DNA of 64,000 bases, taken from the NCBI GenBank assembly GCA_014360805.1, contig JACIWU010000004.1, positions 1 to 64,000 on the forward strand, read 5' to 3'. Shown here in pieces: positions 1 through 10,219 of this stretch. Within the stretch, counting starts at the first letter, position 1, and each line of letters opens with the position of its first letter. Position numbers and translations under genes: made by a program. The notes beneath the pieces were generated by a model. The model was given only the letters and a program-made list of their open reading frames with translations, made no database searches and was not told where the DNA came from. The stretch comes from Chloroflexota bacterium (lineage in GTDB: Bacteria; Chloroflexota; Anaerolineae; DTLA01).

Positions 1-616
1 GCATTCCGCCCACGATGGTGTAGAGGTAGCGGATGCCCGTCACGTTGACACCCATGGCGTCGGCGGTCTGGGGGTTCTCGCCGACCGCCCGCAAGTGCAA
101 CCCAGGGCGCGTCCGATTGAGGAAGAACCACAGGAGCGGCACCAGAAGGTACGTGGCGTAGGTCAGGATGTCCTGATTGAAGACCGACTTGCCCAGCAGC
201 GGCACGTCGGCCAGGGCCGACAGGGGCACGGGCGTGAACTTGGGGCCGACCATGCCGACGAGGGGCGCGCCGCCTGGCCCCAGCCGCTGGCCCAGGTAGT
301 TGGCCAGGCCCGTGCCGAAGATGGTGAGCGCCAGGCCGCTGACCACCTGCTCGGCGCGCAGGCTCACCGACAGGAAGGCGTGGATGGACGCCATGGCCGC
401 GCCCGCCAGCATCGCCACCCCCACGCCCACCCACACCTGTTTGGTGTGGAAGGCGGCGGCGAACCCCGTAACCGCGCCGACGATCATGATGCCTTCCACG
501 CCCAGGTTGAGGATACCGGCCCGCTCCGTGAGGATTTCGCCGACGGTGGCGTACAGCAGCGAGGTGCCGGCGCGGATGGTAACCCACAGGATGGAGGTGA
601 TGAGCGCAAGGGTCAT
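1..616 (-). CDS. ABC transporter permease, NupQ/YufQ type (cut by window edge)
   Basis: Inner-membrane permease of a BmpA-family nucleoside or simple-sugar ABC importer (BPD_transp_2 family). It starts at the ATG at 616-614, which overlaps the stop of the upstream permease in an ATGA arrangement, the usual NupP-NupQ coupling. About 205 residues are visible, with several hydrophobic segments and the family signature ending AVGENPQTADAMGVNV followed by GIRYLYTIVGGM at the window edge. The rest of this protein is found instead on the plus strand at 1376-1753. Joining the two gives about 318 residues, the normal family length. The real gene is therefore probably intact in the genome and disturbed here by an inverted junction. 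Substrate is not determinable from the permease alone. Confidence 0.85.
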   Translation of the reverse strand, partial: MTLALITSILWVTIRAGTSLLYATVGEILTERAGILNLGVEGIMIVGAVTGFAAAFHTKQVWVGVGVAMLAGAAMASIHAFLSVSLRAEQVVSGLALTIFGTGLANYLGQRLGPGGAPLVGMVGPKFTPVPLSALADVPLLGKSVFNQDILTYATYLLVPLLWFFLNRTRPGLHLRAVGENPQTADAMGVNVTGIRYLYTIVGGM

Positions 617-1380
617 GATTCGCCTCCTGAGACGGCAGGGGGAGCAGCGGGCTTCGCAGCCCTGCGGCGCGGCCCCCAGTCCACCCTCAGCCGATACTGG
701 TTGAACAACACGCCTCCGAGCATGAAGAAGAGGATGGCTCCCTGGAGCACCAGGGCCACCGCCGCGGGCAGTCGCATGGTGATCTGTATCTGGTCGCCGC
801 CCACCAGCAGGCCGGCCAGCAAGATCCCCACCAGCACCACGCCCCACGGGTTCAGTTGCCCCATCCACGCTACGATGATGGCCGTGTAGCCGTAGCCCAC
901 CGTCAGGCCCTTCTGCAGGCGGTGGGAGATGCCCGCCACCTCGCCCACGCCGGCCAATCCGGCCAGCCCGCCGCTGATGAGCATCACCAGCAGGACGTTG
1001 CGCCACAGGCTGATGCCCGCGTATCGGGCCGCCCTGGGGTTCTCGCCGATGACGCGCACCTCGTAGCCCCATCGCGTGCGCGTGAGCACCAGCCACAGCG
1101 CCACCGCCGCCACGAGGCCGAACACCAGCCCCAGGTGCACGCGCGTGCCCGGATAGCGCGCCAACCACGCTTCTTGCGGGAACGGCGCGGTGCCCGGAAA
1201 GCCGTATCCTTTCGGGTCGCGCCAGGGGCCGTAGAACAGGTACTCAATCCACAGGATGGCAATGTAGTTCATCATCAAGGTCGTGATGACCTCGTTGACG
1301 CCGAGGAAAGCGCGCAGGAAGGCGGGGATGAGGCCCCAGAGGGCCCCCGCCAGGAACCCTGCCACGATCATGAGGGGCAT
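613..1380 (-). pseudogene. ABC transporter permease, NupP/YufP type, N-terminus missing
   Basis: Second permease of the same importer, upstream of and overlapping the NupQ-like gene by 4 bases. The 255 visible residues start inside the family domain: PLMIVAGFLAGALWG is normally preceded by about 100 residues with the first membrane segments. Motifs GVNEVITTLMMNYIA and VIGENPRAARYAGI are typical. The sequence upstream of 1380 on this strand is the reverse complement of NupQ coding DNA, so the N-terminus was removed by the inverted junction at 1374/1375 and not by gradual decay. The ATG at 1380 is an internal Met. If the junction is an assembly artefact, the gene is whole in the organism. Confidence 0.8.
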
Positions 1381-1412
1381 CCGCTACCTCTACACCATCG
1401 TGGGCGGAATGC
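1375..1412. repeat. Right arm of a 38-bp inverted repeat at an inversion junction
   Basis: Bases 1375-1412 are the exact reverse complement of bases 1-38. Both copies encode the same NupQ stretch (GIRYLYTIVGGM), one on each strand. The base inside the match on the right arm (1374) differs from its counterpart, so homology ends there. The left arm may extend beyond the window edge. This is the footprint of an inversion or fold-back joining two places in one operon. Confidence 0.85.
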
Positions 1413-1753
1413 TCATCGCGCTGGGTGGCGCGCACCTGTCGCTGGCCTACACGCCCGGCTGGACCGAGGGCCTCACGGCGGGGCGCGGCTGGATCGCCGT
1501 CGCCCTGGTCATCTTCGCCACATGGGACCCGGTGCGCGCCGTGGTGGGCGCCATCCTGTTCGGCGGCATCAACGCCGTCCAGTTCCGCATGCAGGCGGCA
1601 GGCACGACCATCCCGGCGGCGTTTCTCAACATGCTGCCCTACGCCTTCACCATCGTAGTACTGGTGTTCGTTACATGGTGGGAAGGCATCCGCAAGCGCG
1701 TGGGCGCGCCCGCTGCCCTGGGCTTGCCCTACGCCCGCGAGGAGAAACGCTGA
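1376..1753 (+). pseudogene. C-terminal fragment of the NupQ-like permease
   Basis: The frame reads GIRYLYTIVGGM, then LIALGGAHLSLAYTPGWTEG and further hydrophobic segments, to a TGA at 1753. It is the missing C-terminal third (about 125 residues) of the permease encoded on the minus strand at 1-616. It has no start codon or ribosome-binding site of its own: in-frame codons upstream of 1376 are antisense to the other permease. The hydrophobic segments, the conserved TPGWTEG loop and the terminal RKRVGAP stretch fit the end of YufQ-like proteins. The downstream lipoprotein gene lies in normal context on the same strand, which suggests the right side of the junction is the undisturbed one. Confidence 0.82.
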
Positions 1754-2540: not shown

Positions 2541-4229
2541 CTACGCGATAAACCCCTTGCTGCGCAGAAGCGCCTCAACCCGCCGCCGATGCGCCTCGGG
2601 CACGCGCACGCACGACGGCCCGACAGTCTGGCCCAACAGCGGCCCGATCTCCGGGTCGGCGCGAATCTCCGCCAGAATCTCTGCCGAGTCCGCCTCCAGG
2701 AGCACGGCGCGGGACAACCGCGCTCGGCCCCTGCGCATCGCCCACTCGCGAATGCGCGCCAGGATGCCCTCGGGGGCCTGCCCCGCGCTCGCCTGCGCGA
2801 TAAACTTCACCACCGCGTCCACGTTCACGCCCTGGCTCAGAATCCGCGCCAGCGACACGGGCTTGATCTCGTACACTGCGCCGTCGCCGTCGCTCACCCA
2901 CGTGGCAAAGCGCTCCAACTGGAAGCGGTGCAGGAGATTCCCGTCGGCGGGCCAGCGCACCCGCCCGTCGTCCCCAACCGTGATCGGCGCGAACTCCGCC
3001 GCTGGCTCCACCTCGCCGCCATGCAGCCACGCCCATCCCCACTCGGTGAGCGCGAAGAGCACGTCGCCCGTCTGAGCATCGCGGCCCAGGTCCGCCGCGC
3101 CCACGTAGTGCATCGCCCCTGCGACAATTTGCGCAATCAGGCGGCCCTCCACCTCATCCCAGTGCTCAAACCCCCTGAGGTACTGGCCCGTTTTCACATC
3201 CCGAATGTACCAGGATTCGTAGTCGCCGCCCGTGCGCTGAAAGTCAGGCGCGTACTCGCGGATCGTCTGCGCCACCTGCTTGAGCGAATACCAAGTTCCA
3301 GCCTCGCACCCCTTCAGCAAGTCCAGAAGCCGCTGGCGCGTGCGCACGGGGTCGTGGCTCCAGCCGCTCCCTTCGCAGCGAATCTCCGCGATGCGCCGCA
3401 ATTCATCCCAGCCTTCGTCGGCCACCCACGCCGACCACATTTGACTTTGCCGTGTGGGTGTGGGCGCGCTCAACCAGGCTCGCGCCGCATCCGACGCCGG
3501 CCTGATTCGGTCGCCTGCCCTGCGCACCAACTTCAGCCGCCCGACGACGCGAAGCAGCCACTGCGCACGCATAGGCACGAACGTCGCGAACGGGGGCGGG
3601 GACATGGGCCGCCAAACCCAGCGCCGCCGCCACGCCGACTCATCCTGGGGCGAAAGCCCGCGCCCGCGCACGTAGCGAGGCTGGTGGTTCTGCACGTAGG
3701 CCAGGAACGTGCACACGTCCACCGATGCCGTATCCAGCGCTCGCCATACCTGTGCAGGCGGGTCGCGCGGCTCAAACGGCAAGCCCGCCTGCGCCCTGGG
3801 CGGCGGCAGCAGAGGCAGCACGTCCGAGGGGATGAACAAAAACGCCACGCGCTCGTCCGCATAGTCGGCGAACGCCTTGAAGAGAAATCCCAGGAACCAC
3901 AGCCGCTCGGTGGCGCTGACAGGCGCAAGCCAGGGTTGTTCCAGCATCAGCCTGCCGTCGCCCATGGGGCGAATCTCCCCGAATCGCCGCATGAACGGGT
4001 CGGCCCGCACCCTGCCCCCCGCCGCCTGCACCGTCTCCAGCGCCTCGCGCTCCTGGGGGTTCAGGATTTCCAGCGCCTCGGCCACGGATTCAGGGCGCAG
4101 CATCTGGTCGGCCAGGAAGCGCGCCGCCTGCACCCGATTGTTGGTGGGCAGGTCTATGCCCCGCGCCGCCGCCAGTGCGCGCAGCCGCGCCACCGAGTAG
4201 TCCAACAAGCATTCCGCCAGTTCTCGCAT
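2541..4229 (-). CDS. Helicase-associated protein with XPB/Ssl2-like N-terminal domain
   Basis: A 562-residue soluble protein without Walker motifs. The C-terminal third (from about residue 400: GDDGRVRWPADGNLLHRFQL, ATWVSDGDGAVYEIKPVSLA) matches the domain found at the N-terminus of bacterial XPB helicases (PF13625 type). The N-terminal part, LDYSVARLRALAAARGIDLP followed by a helical region rich in Arg and Glu, resembles the SAP-like start of many such actinobacterial and chloroflexotal proteins. A role in DNA repair or transcription-coupled remodelling is inferred from the family only. It is monocistronic, with a promoter at 4262-4290. The N-terminus was taken at the ATG at 4229, 33 bases from the predicted -10 box. 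Confidence 0.7.
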   Translation of the reverse strand: MRELAECLLDYSVARLRALAAARGIDLPTNNRVQAARFLADQMLRPESVAEALEILNPQEREALETVQAAGGRVRADPFMRRFGEIRPMGDGRLMLEQPWLAPVSATERLWFLGFLFKAFADYADERVAFLFIPSDVLPLLPPPRAQAGLPFEPRDPPAQVWRALDTASVDVCTFLAYVQNHQPRYVRGRGLSPQDESAWRRRWVWRPMSPPPFATFVPMRAQWLLRVVGRLKLVRRAGDRIRPASDAARAWLSAPTPTRQSQMWSAWVADEGWDELRRIAEIRCEGSGWSHDPVRTRQRLLDLLKGCEAGTWYSLKQVAQTIREYAPDFQRTGGDYESWYIRDVKTGQYLRGFEHWDEVEGRLIAQIVAGAMHYVGAADLGRDAQTGDVLFALTEWGWAWLHGGEVEPAAEFAPITVGDDGRVRWPADGNLLHRFQLERFATWVSDGDGAVYEIKPVSLARILSQGVNVDAVVKFIAQASAGQAPEGILARIREWAMRRGRARLSRAVLLEADSAEILAEIRADPEIGPLLGQTVGPSCVRVPEAHRRRVEALLRSKGFIA

Positions 4230-4261
4230 CGCGGCCCTCGTGGGATGGAATCTTCGGCGGT

Positions 4262-4290
4262 ATTATACGTGCCGCGCCGCGCGCCGACAA
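4262..4290 (-). promoter_or_regulatory. Predicted sigma-70-type promoter for the helicase-associated gene
   Basis: On the minus strand TTGTCG (4290-4285), a 17-base spacer and TATAAT (4267-4262). The -10 box lies 32 bases before the start codon at 4229. Confidence 0.7.
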
Positions 4291-4343
4291 CCGCACTCTC
4301 TTCGCGACCTGGCTCCAAACCCTGTTGGTCGCGGCATGGGTCC

Positions 4344-4377
4344 AGGTGCGACGCACTTCCGAAAGTGCGTCGCACCT
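4344..4377. repeat. Perfect 15-bp hairpin, GTGCGACGCAC family
   Basis: Arms AGGTGCGACGCACTT (4344-4358) and its exact complement (4363-4377) enclose a CCGA loop. Related hairpins stand at 10534-10563 and 20233-20263, always between genes, so this is a dispersed palindromic element and not a gene-specific terminator. Confidence 0.8.
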
Positions 4378-4414
4378 TATAGAACCGCACCTTGTCGCGC
4401 CCTTGCGCCCGATG

Positions 4415-4442
4415 TTGCGCGCCGCACGGAAACGACTATACT
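4415..4442 (+). promoter_or_regulatory. Predicted promoter for the YkvA-like gene
   Basis: TTGCGC (4415-4420), 16-base spacer, TATACT (4437-4442). It ends 23 bases before the start codon at 4466, with the ribosome-binding site in between. Confidence 0.55.
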
Positions 4443-4465
4443 GGATGCGCATGGAGGTGATCGGC

Positions 4466-4819
4466 ATGTCCGAATACGCGCCCAAGAACAAGGTCGGATT
4501 CGTAACCGCGCTCTGGAATCGGGTGCGGCTCGCGTGGAGGCTGTTCCGCGACCCGCGCGTGCCTCTGTGGCCCAAAATCGTGGTTCCCACTGTCGCGCTC
4601 GCCTACGTGATCTTCCCGCTGGACATCCTGCCCGATCTCACGCCCTTCGTGGGCCAACTGGACGACCTGACGCTCCTGGCCCTGGGCCTGCAGGCCTTCA
4701 TCTCCCTCTGCCCCAGGGACGTGGCCGCCGAGCACATGGCGCGCCTGCGGGGCGCCTCTGTGAAGCCTGCCCCCGAAGGCGAAGTGGTGGAAGGCGAGTA
4801 CACCGTCCACCAGGATTGA
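4466..4819 (+). CDS. YkvA-like membrane-associated protein (DUF1232)
   Basis: A 117-residue protein. The ATG at 4466 follows GGAGGTGA (4453-4460) by 5 bases. The core (residues about 15-85) has the DUF1232/YkvA pattern: an amphipathic helix, DPRVPLWPKIVV, a hydrophobic stretch and the hallmark YVIFPLDILPDLTPFVGQLDD followed by a second hydrophobic helix. Members are widespread and small; their molecular role is not established. The C-terminal 30 residues are acidic and probably disordered. It converges with iorB, with a shared hairpin between them. Nothing nearby suggests a partner. Confidence 0.85.
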   Translation: MSEYAPKNKVGFVTALWNRVRLAWRLFRDPRVPLWPKIVVPTVALAYVIFPLDILPDLTPFVGQLDDLTLLALGLQAFISLCPRDVAAEHMARLRGASVKPAPEGEVVEGEYTVHQD

Positions 4820-4832
4820 TCGCCAAACGAAA

Positions 4833-4876
4833 GCGCCCGAAGCAGGGCGCCGAAGTAGCGCCTGGGCTTCGGGCGC
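4833..4876. terminator. Hairpin between convergent genes
   Basis: GCGCCCGAAGC (4833-4843) pairs with GCTTCGGGCGC (4866-4876) across a 22-base loop between the converging YkvA-like gene and iorB. No T-run follows on either side, so it may act as a weak bidirectional or Rho-assisted terminator. Confidence 0.45.
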
Positions 4877-4896
4877 GACGCCACACGAGGAAGGCC

Positions 4897-5481
4897 CTAC
4901 TTGATCAGGGTGCGCCCCCGATCAAAGGCCCGCAGGTTCATCTCCACGTACTTGGGCGGCACCCGCTCCTCTATCGCGGCGCGCCACACCGCCGCGTCCA
5001 CATCCAGCAGCGTCGACAGCGCCCCCAGCATCACCACGTTGTTCACGCGGGCGCTTCCAACCTCCTGGGCCACCTTCAGGCTGGGAATAAGGTAGAGCCT
5101 ATCGGTAACCGCCTTGAACGCGGCCAGAAACCGCTCGTCCGACGGGTACTCGGCCCCGCCTGAACTCACCGCCACCGGCGGAATCTCCTGATCGTTGACC
5201 AGCGCCACGCCGCCAGGCTTCAGCCAATCCACGTGGCGCAGCGCCTCCAGTTTCTCAAACGCCACAAGGAAATCGGCCTCGCCCTTGCCGATGAGCGGGG
5301 AATACACCTTCTCGCTCCAGCGCACGTGGCTGATGACGCTGCCGCCCCGCTGGGCCATCCCGTGCACTTCCGACTTCTTGGCTTCCAGGCCAGCCTCAAG
5401 CCCAACCTGCGCGATCACGTCGCTGGCAAGGAGCGTGCCCTGACCGCCCACACCGACGACAGTGAAATCTACGCTCTTCAT
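4897..5481 (-). CDS. iorB: Indolepyruvate:ferredoxin oxidoreductase, beta subunit
   Basis: A 194-residue gamma-type domain of the 2-oxoacid:ferredoxin oxidoreductase superfamily (Pfam POR). It partners IorA in oxidative decarboxylation of aryl pyruvates from aromatic amino acids, yielding the aryl-acetyl-CoA and reduced ferredoxin in the cytoplasm. Seen: the N-terminal nucleotide-type loop VVGVGGQGTLLASDVIAQ, then SEVHGMAQRGGSVISHVRW, and ARVNNVVMLGALS. Length matches IorB. It lies 174 bases downstream of iorA on the same strand, the usual order. The gap carries a palindromic repeat, which may lower readthrough. Assignment to IorB over other POR gamma subunits rests on the neighbouring IorA with its fused ferredoxin domain. 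Confidence 0.9.
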   Translation of the reverse strand: MKSVDFTVVGVGGQGTLLASDVIAQVGLEAGLEAKKSEVHGMAQRGGSVISHVRWSEKVYSPLIGKGEADFLVAFEKLEALRHVDWLKPGGVALVNDQEIPPVAVSSGGAEYPSDERFLAAFKAVTDRLYLIPSLKVAQEVGSARVNNVVMLGALSTLLDVDAAVWRAAIEERVPPKYVEMNLRAFDRGRTLIK

Positions 5482-5572
5482 AGTCCTTCCTCCCTGATTG
5501 GATCACCTGCAACTGCTTGCGATTTCCCACCCCTCTGTCCGCCTGCCGCACCTCGCCCCCAGCCTTCGGCCG

Positions 5573-5655
5573 TCCCCCTCTCCGCCGGCGGAGAGGGGGA
5601 TTGAGGGGGTGAGGTCAGACCCCCCGCCCGCCTTCGGGGGATTGAGGGGGTGAGG
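5573..5655. repeat. 28-bp perfect palindrome plus direct repeats between iorA and iorB
   Basis: TCCCCCTCTCCGCC (5573-5586) and its exact complement (5587-5600) form an uninterrupted palindrome. It is followed by two direct copies of GGGGGATTGAGGGGGTGAGG (about 5595 and 5636). A similar element appears near 10440-10490. It is intergenic and noncoding. Confidence 0.75.
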
Positions 5656-7437
5656 TCAAGCCTCCGACTGCTCCAGAACCTGCGCCCGGAACAGGATGGC
5701 CTTGCGCCCGCACACCTGCGCGCACACCTCGCACCCCGTGCACAGCAGCGCATCAATGGACGCCTTACCGTCGGGGCGCTTCACGATGGCCGGGCAGCCG
5801 ACCCGGAAGCACAGCCCGCACCCGTTGCACCGCTCCTCGTCCACCCGCAACGGCACGTACCGCTTGCGCGCCTCGGGCAGCAGTGCGCACTCGCCCCGAA
5901 CCACCAGCGCCGACGCCTCGTCCCGCTTCAGCGCCTCTCGCAGCGCCCGCTCCACCTCGCGCAGATCAAAGGCGTCCAGCGTCTGCACGTGATCCATCCC
6001 CAGCGCCCGCAGCAGCGGCTCAAACTCAATCTCCTTCGTCTCCTGGCCTTGGAGCGTGCGGCCGGTGCCCGGGTTGTCCTGGTGGCCGGTCATGGCCGTT
6101 ACGCGGTTGTCCAGCACGACGGTAATCGCCTTGCCTTTGTTGTAGGCCACGTTCAGCAGCGCCGGCATGCCCGTGTGGAAGAACGTGGAATCGCCCAGCA
6201 CAGCGATGTTGCGCTCGGGCGAACCGGCCTTGTCGGCGCCGTGGGCCACCCCGATGCTGGCCCCCATGCACCCGCACGTATCCGTGGAATTCAGCGGGGG
6301 CAGCGCGCCCAGCGTATAGCACCCGATGTCGCCGTTGATGGGCAGTTTCAGTTTCCGCGTGATGACGTAGAACCCCCGATGCGGGCACCCGGGACACAGC
6401 ACCGGCGGCCGTCCGGGCAGGCTCCCCACGTCGGGCACGATGTACGTCTTCCGCACCGACTCGGGCAGCAGGCCCGCTGCGACGGCCTGCTCGCGAACCG
6501 TGCGCGGATCCATCTCGCCAATGCCCGAGAAGATGGACTTTCCCTCCACCCAGATGCCCAGCAGTTTGATCTCGTTCTCCACGAAGGGATCCAATTCCTC
6601 CAGGACGATGGCCCGCTCCACCTGCCCCACGAACTCCCGCACCATCTTCGGCGGTATCGGGTAGGTCATCCCCAACTTCAGGATGGATGCCGTGGGGAAG
6701 ATTTCCTTGGCGTACTGATAGGCCACGCCGCACGTTACGATCCCCAGGCTTCGGTCGCCCCACTCAATGCGGTTGAACGGGAAAGTCTCCGCGAACTCCG
6801 TGAGTTTGCGGATGCGCTCCTCAATGACCGGATGCCGCTTGCGCGCGTTCACCGGCAGCATCACATACTTCTCAAACTTGCGCGGATAGGTCGGCAGCGG
6901 GGGCGGGCCTTCCCGACGCTCGCCCAGTTCCACCGGCGTGCTGGAATGGGCGATGCGTGTCGTGATGCGCAGCATGACCGGCGTGTCAAACCGCTCGCTG
7001 ATGTCCAGCGCCGCGCCCACCAAATCTTTCGCCTCCTGGCTGTCCACCGGCTCCACCACCGGCACGCGGGCGAACTTACCAAAGTTGCGGTTGTCCTGCT
7101 CGTTCTGCGAACTGTGCATGGACGGATCGTCGGCAGACACGATGACCAGCCCGCCTTCTATGCCTGTCATGGACGCGTAGAAGAACGCATCGGCGGCCAC
7201 GTTCAGGCCCACGTGCTTCATGGTGGACATGGCGCGCCGGCCCGCATACGCCGCCCCGATGGCTACGTCCAGCGCCACCTTCTCGTTGGTGGCCCACTCG
7301 GCGTACACGTTGGGGTAACGCGCAAACTCCTCCAGAATCTCGGTACTCGGTGTCCCCGGATAGGCCGACGCCACGGCCACGCCGTACTCCCACGCGCCGC
7401 GCGCGATCGCCTCATTTCCCGACAGCAATTTTCGCAT
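5656..7437 (-). CDS. iorA: Indolepyruvate:ferredoxin oxidoreductase, alpha subunit
   Basis: A 593-residue thiamine-diphosphate enzyme that with IorB converts indolepyruvate and other aryl pyruvates plus CoA to acyl-CoA, CO2 and reduced ferredoxin. Domain order: POR-N pyrimidine-binding part (ASAYPGTPSTEILEE, residues about 23-37), domain II, the TPP/Mg-binding part with CPGCPHRGFY and GDSTFFHTGMPALLNVAYNK, and a C-terminal ferredoxin region with two cluster motifs, CNGCGLCFRVGCP and CTGCEVCAQVCG. The total matches IorA. The start at 7437 is kept because it begins MRKLLSGNEAIARGAWE, as in relatives. It sits just after the peptidase gene (29-base gap) and may be cotranscribed. It points to anaerobic amino-acid fermentation. 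Confidence 0.93.
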   Translation of the reverse strand: MRKLLSGNEAIARGAWEYGVAVASAYPGTPSTEILEEFARYPNVYAEWATNEKVALDVAIGAAYAGRRAMSTMKHVGLNVAADAFFYASMTGIEGGLVIVSADDPSMHSSQNEQDNRNFGKFARVPVVEPVDSQEAKDLVGAALDISERFDTPVMLRITTRIAHSSTPVELGERREGPPPLPTYPRKFEKYVMLPVNARKRHPVIEERIRKLTEFAETFPFNRIEWGDRSLGIVTCGVAYQYAKEIFPTASILKLGMTYPIPPKMVREFVGQVERAIVLEELDPFVENEIKLLGIWVEGKSIFSGIGEMDPRTVREQAVAAGLLPESVRKTYIVPDVGSLPGRPPVLCPGCPHRGFYVITRKLKLPINGDIGCYTLGALPPLNSTDTCGCMGASIGVAHGADKAGSPERNIAVLGDSTFFHTGMPALLNVAYNKGKAITVVLDNRVTAMTGHQDNPGTGRTLQGQETKEIEFEPLLRALGMDHVQTLDAFDLREVERALREALKRDEASALVVRGECALLPEARKRYVPLRVDEERCNGCGLCFRVGCPAIVKRPDGKASIDALLCTGCEVCAQVCGRKAILFRAQVLEQSEA

Positions 7438-7466: not shown

Positions 7467-9446
7467 CTATCCATCTCCTCGGCGGCGGAGTTCTACACCT
7501 CCCACCCGCGCCAGGAGTTCAAAGTACTGAACCAGCGCCTGGGTCTGCCGCGATCCCGTCTCGGCCTCCAAGAGGTCGGCGATGTCCGATAGCGACCGCT
7601 CGCCGTCCGCCCAGTACAGCGCCAGGACGGGCATCGTCCGCCCGAATGCCTCATGCTCTTTGCTGAAACGGTGGAAGGCCTCGCGGTCGCCCGGCTTGAT
7701 GAGCAGATCGCCCACCGACAGCGGCCCCCGGAACCGCCGCACGGGAATCAGGCTGGCGGCCTTTTCCTCCCACTCGCCCGACGGCGGCGCGCCAGGCTCC
7801 CCCGCCTCCTCGCCCAGGAACGAGGCCGCGCGTCGCAACTCGCCGTCCGCGAACGCCGCGCATTCCGCCTGGAACGGCGCTACATCCACAGGAGCCAGGC
7901 GGCGCAAGGTGGCCAGCGCCTCGGATTGCCGCGCCGTGGCAAATGCCACCTCTCGCCGCAATTTCGCCACGCTGCCCTTGCTGCTCCCTGCTGCCATCGC
8001 CGCCTGGGCGCGCCGCAGGATGTCCACCTTGAACCGAGCCGTCATCTCGTGGGCAAGCCACTCGGCTTCCTTCGGCCCCGCGTTCGCAACCCAATACCCG
8101 TAGGCCGCCGCGAGCGCCGCCACCGTCCCCATCATCTTGGGGCTGACTTTGTCCAGCGTGTCCTCGCTCGTGTGGTAATACCGGTCGGGCCACTGGATGA
8201 TCATCGGCGTCGGCACGCCCACGCTGGGATCCGACAGAATGTAATGATCGCTCCCGCCCGAAAAAGGCGTGTCGGCGTACCGGTACAGCGGAAACTCGCC
8301 CTGGCCCGCGTGGCTCTTGGCGTCGCCCAGCAGCAGGTCGCGGATATGCCGCGCCACGGTCGGCGCGAAACTGCTCATGGACGCCGGCGGCGACTCCACC
8401 AGGAGCGAACTGCCGCACTGGTCCTGATCCTCACCCACCATGTCCAGGTTCAGCCCCGCAACCATGAGGGGAATATCCTGCTCGCGCGACGCCAGATACG
8501 CATACGTGCCCGACATCTCCGGCACCCACAGGAACCGCAGCGTGCGTCGCGGCTTGGCCAGCCGCCCGTCGGCCACGCAGGCGGCCAGGGCCCGCGCCAC
8601 TTCCATCAGCGCCCCCGCCCCCGACGCGTTGTCGTTGGCCGATGGCTGCGGGTGGCACAGGTGCGCGACGAGCAGCACTTCCTCGGCGGTCTCCCCGCGA
8701 ATGACCGCTTCCACCACCTCCATCTGGCCCGCGTAGCGCGACGAATCCACGTGGACCCGCACGCGGACCGCCTTGCCTTCGGCGCGGGCCTTGCGGCATC
8801 GTTCTCGCAGCGTGTCGCCCTGGCGCGGCGTCAGCACGAATCCGAAGACCGACAGGTGCTCGCCGCCGCGGAACCAGAACGACGTGTACTGGCGGGCGTC
8901 GGGCAAATCAATGCGCTCGCGCACGGGTGGCGTCTTCATCATCCCGTCAAACAGCACGCCCGCCGCCCCGCGCTCCCGAACCGCCAAATCCATGATGCGG
9001 TCCATGGGTGCGCGCGCCAGCACCACCTTGCCCTCCAGGTCCAGGCCCTCGTAGTCGGCACGCTCCTCGCCCCCCTCCAGCGCCACAACTTCAAAATCCC
9101 CGTCCGCGGGCGCGCTCCGCTGGATCACCGAAATCTTCTCGTCACGATAGTCCGCCAGTTTCTCCGTCGGCTGACCGTCTTCCCCCAGCAGGTGGAGCGT
9201 CGCCGCCTTGCAATCCCATTCCAGGAACGTGCGCATGGACCAGAAGGCCGTTGCGCCGTCGGCAGGATACGACAGAACGCGCACCTCCAGGCCCGCGTCC
9301 CTGAGCGTCTCCGCGACGTGCTGCGCCGCCGCGCGGAATCCGGGGCTGGCCTGAATGCGATGGTAGCGGGTAATCTCGGCCACGTGGTTTTTCGCCGCCG
9401 CCCCCGAAATCTCCTTGCGAAGCGTTGCCATCAATGAGTCAAACAT
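7467..9446 (-). CDS. M28-type metallo-aminopeptidase with PA-like insert
   Basis: A 659-residue protein starting at the ATG at 9446, preceded by AAGGAGGG. The N-terminal part contains a protease-associated-like segment (GLDLEGKVVLARAPMDRIMD, about residues 140-160). The catalytic M28/DUF4910-like domain shows the two-zinc set: His in AHLCHPQPS (residue 262), Asp in ANDNASGAGALMEVA, Glu in PEMSGTYAYL, Asp in NLDMVGED and His in GGSDHYILSDP. A C-terminal region of about 200 residues resembles a winged-helix or PqqD-like end (ERSLSDIADLLEAETG). No signal peptide is visible, so it is probably cytoplasmic. It could supply amino acids to iorAB downstream. The same frame stays open upstream to 10304, but that part is antisense-like and overlaps the prepilin peptidase. 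Confidence 0.8.
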   Translation of the reverse strand: MFDSLMATLRKEISGAAAKNHVAEITRYHRIQASPGFRAAAQHVAETLRDAGLEVRVLSYPADGATAFWSMRTFLEWDCKAATLHLLGEDGQPTEKLADYRDEKISVIQRSAPADGDFEVVALEGGEERADYEGLDLEGKVVLARAPMDRIMDLAVRERGAAGVLFDGMMKTPPVRERIDLPDARQYTSFWFRGGEHLSVFGFVLTPRQGDTLRERCRKARAEGKAVRVRVHVDSSRYAGQMEVVEAVIRGETAEEVLLVAHLCHPQPSANDNASGAGALMEVARALAACVADGRLAKPRRTLRFLWVPEMSGTYAYLASREQDIPLMVAGLNLDMVGEDQDQCGSSLLVESPPASMSSFAPTVARHIRDLLLGDAKSHAGQGEFPLYRYADTPFSGGSDHYILSDPSVGVPTPMIIQWPDRYYHTSEDTLDKVSPKMMGTVAALAAAYGYWVANAGPKEAEWLAHEMTARFKVDILRRAQAAMAAGSSKGSVAKLRREVAFATARQSEALATLRRLAPVDVAPFQAECAAFADGELRRAASFLGEEAGEPGAPPSGEWEEKAASLIPVRRFRGPLSVGDLLIKPGDREAFHRFSKEHEAFGRTMPVLALYWADGERSLSDIADLLEAETGSRQTQALVQYFELLARVGGVELRRRGDG

Positions 9447-9463
9447 GCATTCCCTCCTTGCGC

Positions 9464-10219
9464 CTAGCGCGCATAGGGTGCCAGATACCACAGGATGAAC
9501 TCGCGCCCGTACAGGAGCGCGAATGCGGCCCCCAGCACCAGGTACGGGCCATAGGCGATGGCGCTCTTGCGACCCACGCGGCGCAGGGCCAACATCACCC
9601 CTGCTCCAACCCCGCCGAGCAAGATGCCCACCAGGATCGCCACCAGCACCACCGGGAACCCCGTCGCCAGGCCCACAAACCCCATGAGCGTAACGTCGCC
9701 ACCGCCCAGCCCGCCCCGGGCGATCACGGCCAGCACAAAGAACAACCCGAAACCAATGGCCCCGCCAATGAGCGCCTTTACCGGCGTCATGTGAGGCATG
9801 AAGAAACTCGCCACCAGCGCCAGCCCCATGGCCGGATAGGTAACCACGTCCAAAATCAGGCGGTGCTCCAGGTCCGTAACGGTAACCAGGACAAGCACCG
9901 CGAAGTAGAGGGCCAGGAAGACAAACTGCACCCCAACCCCGTATCGCCAGGCCAAGAAGCCGAAGATGGCAGCAGTTGCCAGTTCCACGATGGGCGCGCG
10001 CAGCCCTCGCCCCGCACCGCACTGCGGACAGCGACTCCACCCGGCCCAATCCGCGATCACCCCCGCCAGGCTCAACGGACGCCGAGCCGCGCCGCACGCA
10101 GAACATCGGGGAAACTGAAAGGGAGATTGCCGAGGTTCGGCGGGAAGAAAATCGGCGCACAGGTTCAGGAACACGCCGACGCAGTATCCAAGTAGCGCTG
10201 CTGCGACTATCATCCCCAT
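9464..10219 (-). CDS. Prepilin peptidase (A24 family)
   Basis: A 251-residue polytopic membrane aspartic protease that cleaves, and often N-methylates, type IV prepilins. Seen: an N-terminal hydrophobic helix, then a cytoplasmic loop with the paired zinc-type motifs CSAC and CPQC, then about six membrane segments. Catalytic Asp residues are in VTVTDLEHRLILD and GGGDVTLMGFVG, both conserved in PilD/ComC. The start at 10219 is 30 bases from a good -10 box; an ATG two codons later is possible. No pilin gene lies nearby, so it probably serves unlinked loci. It lies 17 bases upstream of the peptidase gene and is likely cotranscribed. Confidence 0.92.
   Translation of the reverse strand: MGMIVAAALLGYCVGVFLNLCADFLPAEPRQSPFQFPRCSACGAARRPLSLAGVIADWAGWSRCPQCGAGRGLRAPIVELATAAIFGFLAWRYGVGVQFVFLALYFAVLVLVTVTDLEHRLILDVVTYPAMGLALVASFFMPHMTPVKALIGGAIGFGLFFVLAVIARGGLGGGDVTLMGFVGLATGFPVVLVAILVGILLGGVGAGVMLALRRVGRKSAIAYGPYLVLGAAFALLYGREFILWYLAPYAR

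Follow-up and report, generated by a model that had tools for sequence, protein, structure and literature searches.

ABC permease pairs of the nupPQ type (BPD_transp_2 family) are encoded downstream of genes for a binding protein and an ATPase. Likewise, two adjacent permease genes of this family (PF02653) are found at the start of the window, the 64,000-nucleotide stretch of DNA analysed here, which corresponds to C4:1-64000 in a 154-contig draft genome totalling 3.24 Mb. Unlike in the described pairs, the ATPase gene and the start of the first permease gene were not found in this assembly, and the remainder is misoriented. For such a misorientation, the closest described counterparts are the chimeras with inverted segments that form during multiple displacement amplification (Lasken and Stockwell 2007; PMC1855051). 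In that work, 406 of 475 chimeras were inverted joins; the segments were separated by less than 10 kb in 337 of these, and 2-21 complementary bases were found at over 70% of the junctions. The join in C4, with segments about 1.34 kb apart and probably about 4-5 shared bases, has this form in common with them, but here it is seen in assembled contigs only. Standard library construction can also yield chimeras of this kind. Another paper (PMC13265396) appears to deal with palindromic reads that amplification introduces into genome assembly. We consider it very likely that the split permease pair in C4 is a fold-back misassembly (an inverted chimera) at the end of a metagenome-type contig, and not a real feature of the genome.

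Three open reading frames make up the split pair. The minus strand carries the N-terminal part of a nupQ-like permease (2-616, 205 aa) and the C-terminal part of a nupP-like permease (613-1380), the latter covering positions 56-269 of the 269 positions of the BPD_transp_2 profile, with its first codon or two falling at the false junction. The plus strand carries the C-terminal part of the nupQ-like permease (1376-1753). This arrangement had been described in the earlier note and the reading frames agree with it, as does its proposal that joining the pieces rebuilds a NupQ of 318 residues, given that flipping 1-1412 yields an uninterrupted 318-aa permease. Pfam analysis assigned the two longer pieces to BPD_transp_2 with 129.4 and 97.4 bits (cut-off 26.8), while 1376-1753 alone scored 19.2 bits, below the cut-off, and is placed by its reading frame and the order in relatives together with this sub-cut-off match. 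The nearest NCBIfam models are ABC_B6_perm_1 and ABC_B6_perm_2 (putative B6 transporter), at 129.5 and 148.5 bits; these scores are for gene fragments, not whole genes, and do not reach the equivalog cut-offs of 465 and 400. Because these models score far below their cut-offs on the fragments, NupPQ, a name kept from the earlier note, serves only as a label, a family-level guess.

Direct sequence comparison bore out that 1375-1412, read as its reverse complement, is identical to bases 1-38, with the first mismatch at base 39; when the repeat is extended to 1-42 and 1371-1412, 41 of 42 positions agree. The left arm (1-38, minus strand) is a contig-terminal copy of a 38-mer from the middle of the nupQ-like gene, as indicated by the comparison and the contig end, and the right arm (1375-1412, plus strand) is the second copy and occupies its true position within nupQ. 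A search of the own genome, in which 11 small contigs read as N, gave no other match to the 38-mer, and its first 24 bases occur at two places only within 1.67 Mb of the assembly. The 38-bp inverted repeat is not due to chance, since the genome search gave no further match and only three comparable single-copy pairs (at least 24 bp, on one contig) were found in that 1.67 Mb.

The order of the pieces was then compared with relatives. The search covered 60 genomes including the own one, of which 54 gave matches, and loci were taken for the best 29 relatives, one per genome. Among these 29, all 21 loci matching both 1-1375 and 1413-1753 show the rebuilt order, with the best matches to the two pieces on opposite strands, although some distant loci among the 21 rest on short matches. 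The segment 1-1379, annotated on the minus strand as nupP-like C-part plus nupQ-like N-part, thus runs in the same direction as 1413-1753 in 21/21 of these loci and is wrongly oriented in the window. The terminal 1.37 kb of C4 is inverted relative to the comparable relatives, and 38 bases of nupQ are doubled. In the two same-genus genomes, G001 and G002 (the sisters), window 1-1390 and 1375-1749 map to opposite strands as adjoining matches with an overlap of exactly 38 bases (8498-9881 and 9844-10218 on G001:C12; 29445-30828 and 30791-31165 on G002:C68). Once flipped, the sequence forms a single alignment with each of them (flipped base 23 to 1749, about 1,730 columns), with identities of 87% (G001) and 86% (G002).

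To the right of the split pair lies a small plus-strand open reading frame (1790-2341), lipoprotein-like by eye and without a Pfam match. The right side of the junction, plus strand from 1375, is genuine, because the next gene (matched over 1833-2325) follows nupQ in G002 too. A further set of 15 loci from named relatives, fetched with the neighbouring gene 2541-4229 as query, gave no DNA match to 1-2340 in the fetched stretches, and these loci therefore have no bearing on the junction; two of the 15 match window 2545-6000.

The sisters also bear on how the join may have formed. At the position of the nupP breakpoint neither of them carries a copy of the 38-mer, and ordinary nupP coding sequence is found there instead. 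As judged from these two sequences, the own nupP N-part not having been found, only about 4-5 bases are common to nupP and antisense nupQ at the breakpoint (TGCC, perhaps TGCCC in this organism), which places a likely microhomology at the false junction (1375-1379, no strand assigned). A fold-back chimera at short microhomology fits these data and recombination between 38-bp repeats does not, because the sisters share only these few bases at the breakpoint. The 38 bases are a part of nupQ that is present twice in the contig, and not the homology behind the join; the doubling arises only because the contig runs into nupQ a second time at its end, in addition to the genuine copy. The perfect 38-bp inverted repeat flanking 1.3 kb would be in keeping with an inversion fixed in the chromosome, or with an invertible switch, bounded by these repeats, but either needs a pre-existing repeat at the nupP site, and recombination between such repeats was rejected given that the repeat is absent from this site in both sisters. 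Moreover, the nupP frame of the window runs into stop codons in the 38-mer copy, as read by hand, its open part beginning a single codon ahead of the ATG at 1380, and the inverted order was seen in 0/21 of the relative loci matching both pieces. We regard such an inversion as scarcely credible, the least probable of the readings considered here.

Window base 1 is base 1 of C4, which answers the check, proposed in the earlier note, of whether position 1 is a contig end. In G001 the cluster runs in one direction as binding protein, another open reading frame, ATPase, permease and permease, the binding protein and ATPase being named by eye. For the upstream region of this cluster (the nupP N-part and nupA, the ATPase gene), the readable part of the own assembly gave nothing near-identical; the best match to the ATPase gene there is a paralogue on C95 (about 67%). 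Therefore, a gap exists in the readable assembly at the site of the false end. A strong match (90%) to the binding-protein end of the same G001 cluster is located at C106:55-749, and base 61 of C106 corresponds to a position about 3.3 kb (G001) or about 2.1 kb (G002) before the nupP C-part. The readable assembly excludes 11 small contigs (C144-C154, 22 kb), read as N, which could hold the missing upstream part.

A second fold-back was found at C137 (G000:C137:1-507, locus L071), where bases 1-42 are the exact reverse complement of 466-507, again at the first base of the contig, and split a kinase-like gene. The minus-strand frame before the junction, a protein-kinase-like open reading frame by eye, reaches the residues with which the plus-strand frame starts at base 3, and flipping continues the reading frame. 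Both sisters show the rebuilt order at this locus as well, 470 onward matching one strand and 3-422 (G001) or 3-307 (G002) the other, with a 36-base overlap. To place these two cases in the assembly, 215 of 308 contig ends were read, the remainder being 22 ends of contigs that read as N and 71 unfetched ends. At 13 of the 215 ends, 16 or more exact bases form a terminal inverted match. Besides C4 and C137, the four ends with matches of 22-31 bp were checked (C67, C66, C50 and C46) and seven with 16 bp were left out. The matches at C67, C66 and C50 proved to be dispersed repeats and that at C46 a short terminal palindrome, and all four were rejected as fold-backs, so that only C4 and C137 are counted as such among the ends checked. 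A survey of exact inverted repeats of at least 24 bp with separate arms on one contig, over 1,673,478 bases of the assembly, gave 30 pairs, three of them single-copy: 42 bp at C137 1-42, 38 bp at C4 1-38 and 25 bp at an internal place in C124. Above 25 bp, this 1.67 Mb thus holds just two single-copy inverted repeats, and both begin at contig base 1. A constant overlap equal to the word size of the assembler was not found among these ends, the two fold-backs having 38 and 42 bases and other contig-end overlaps 53, 63, 99, 125 and more.

This survey also bears on a real snap-back in part of the population, in which template switching during replication would have produced an inverted duplication at short microhomology and the assembler would have taken the minority branch. 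The structure of its product is identical to that of the artefact, and a microhomology of 4-5 bases also fits replication-based template switching. Snap-backs would be expected inside contigs too, yet the 1.67 Mb searched holds no contig-internal single-copy pair above 25 bp; the two affected loci are unrelated, belong to one assembly and each sit at contig base 1, and the event in C4 would break both permease genes. We therefore consider a real snap-back highly unlikely. Still harder to accept is a subpopulation in which such an inverted duplication switches off the ABC permease pair, with the same type of event at C137; if true, it would suggest that the lineage is prone to template switching at microhomology.

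For the fold-back misassembly, a plausible course can be outlined. Chimeric molecules or reads may have linked nupQ in antisense to a sense stretch of nupP some 1.34 kb distant through a microhomology of about 5 bases. The assembler would have taken this chimeric link into nupP and continued forward through nupP and nupQ until it met the already-used 38-mer, where it would have halted, so that the final base of the 38-mer became the contig end. In the true locus, nupQ would then follow nupP in one direction, with an upstream gap that corresponds to about 2.1-3.3 kb in the sisters and holds the nupP N-part and nupA. The earlier note had offered either an inversion with short homology or a fold-back artefact, favouring the latter. 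The artefact is supported because the join lies at a contig end, the rebuilt order is seen in 21/21 loci, the 38-mer is absent from the nupP site of the sisters and a second fold-back exists; the 38 bases themselves do not stand as the joining homology, given that neither sister carries them at the nupP site. In practice, gene calls from C4 should be used only after its first 1.37 kb has been clipped or flipped, and C137 calls for the same treatment at its end. A single-copy inverted repeat of about 40 bp starting at contig base 1 may serve as a cheap flag for fold-back ends.

Several other features were observed in the window. Synteny breaks at a dispersed repeat in 2341-2540: in G002, C68 carries block 1-2340 and C8 carries block 2545-6000, and the corresponding contigs in G001 are C12/C46 and C5. 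The DNA that comes after the nup block in G002 has its counterpart at an internal position of C6 in this assembly, and for the DNA next to the 2541-4229 gene in L194, a named relative, the counterpart is at an internal position of C2. This break may be either a repeat-mediated rearrangement or a second misjoin. Dispersed short repeats at 2392-2437, 2471-2516 and 5550-5616 have copies on many contigs of the own genome and the sisters, several of them at contig ends, and are a possible cause of the fragmentation of the assembly. Further along, two neighbouring genes on the minus strand (4897-7437) are of the pyruvate/indolepyruvate ferredoxin oxidoreductase type, one with PF01558 and the other with PF02775 and PF01855 together with a 4Fe-4S domain.
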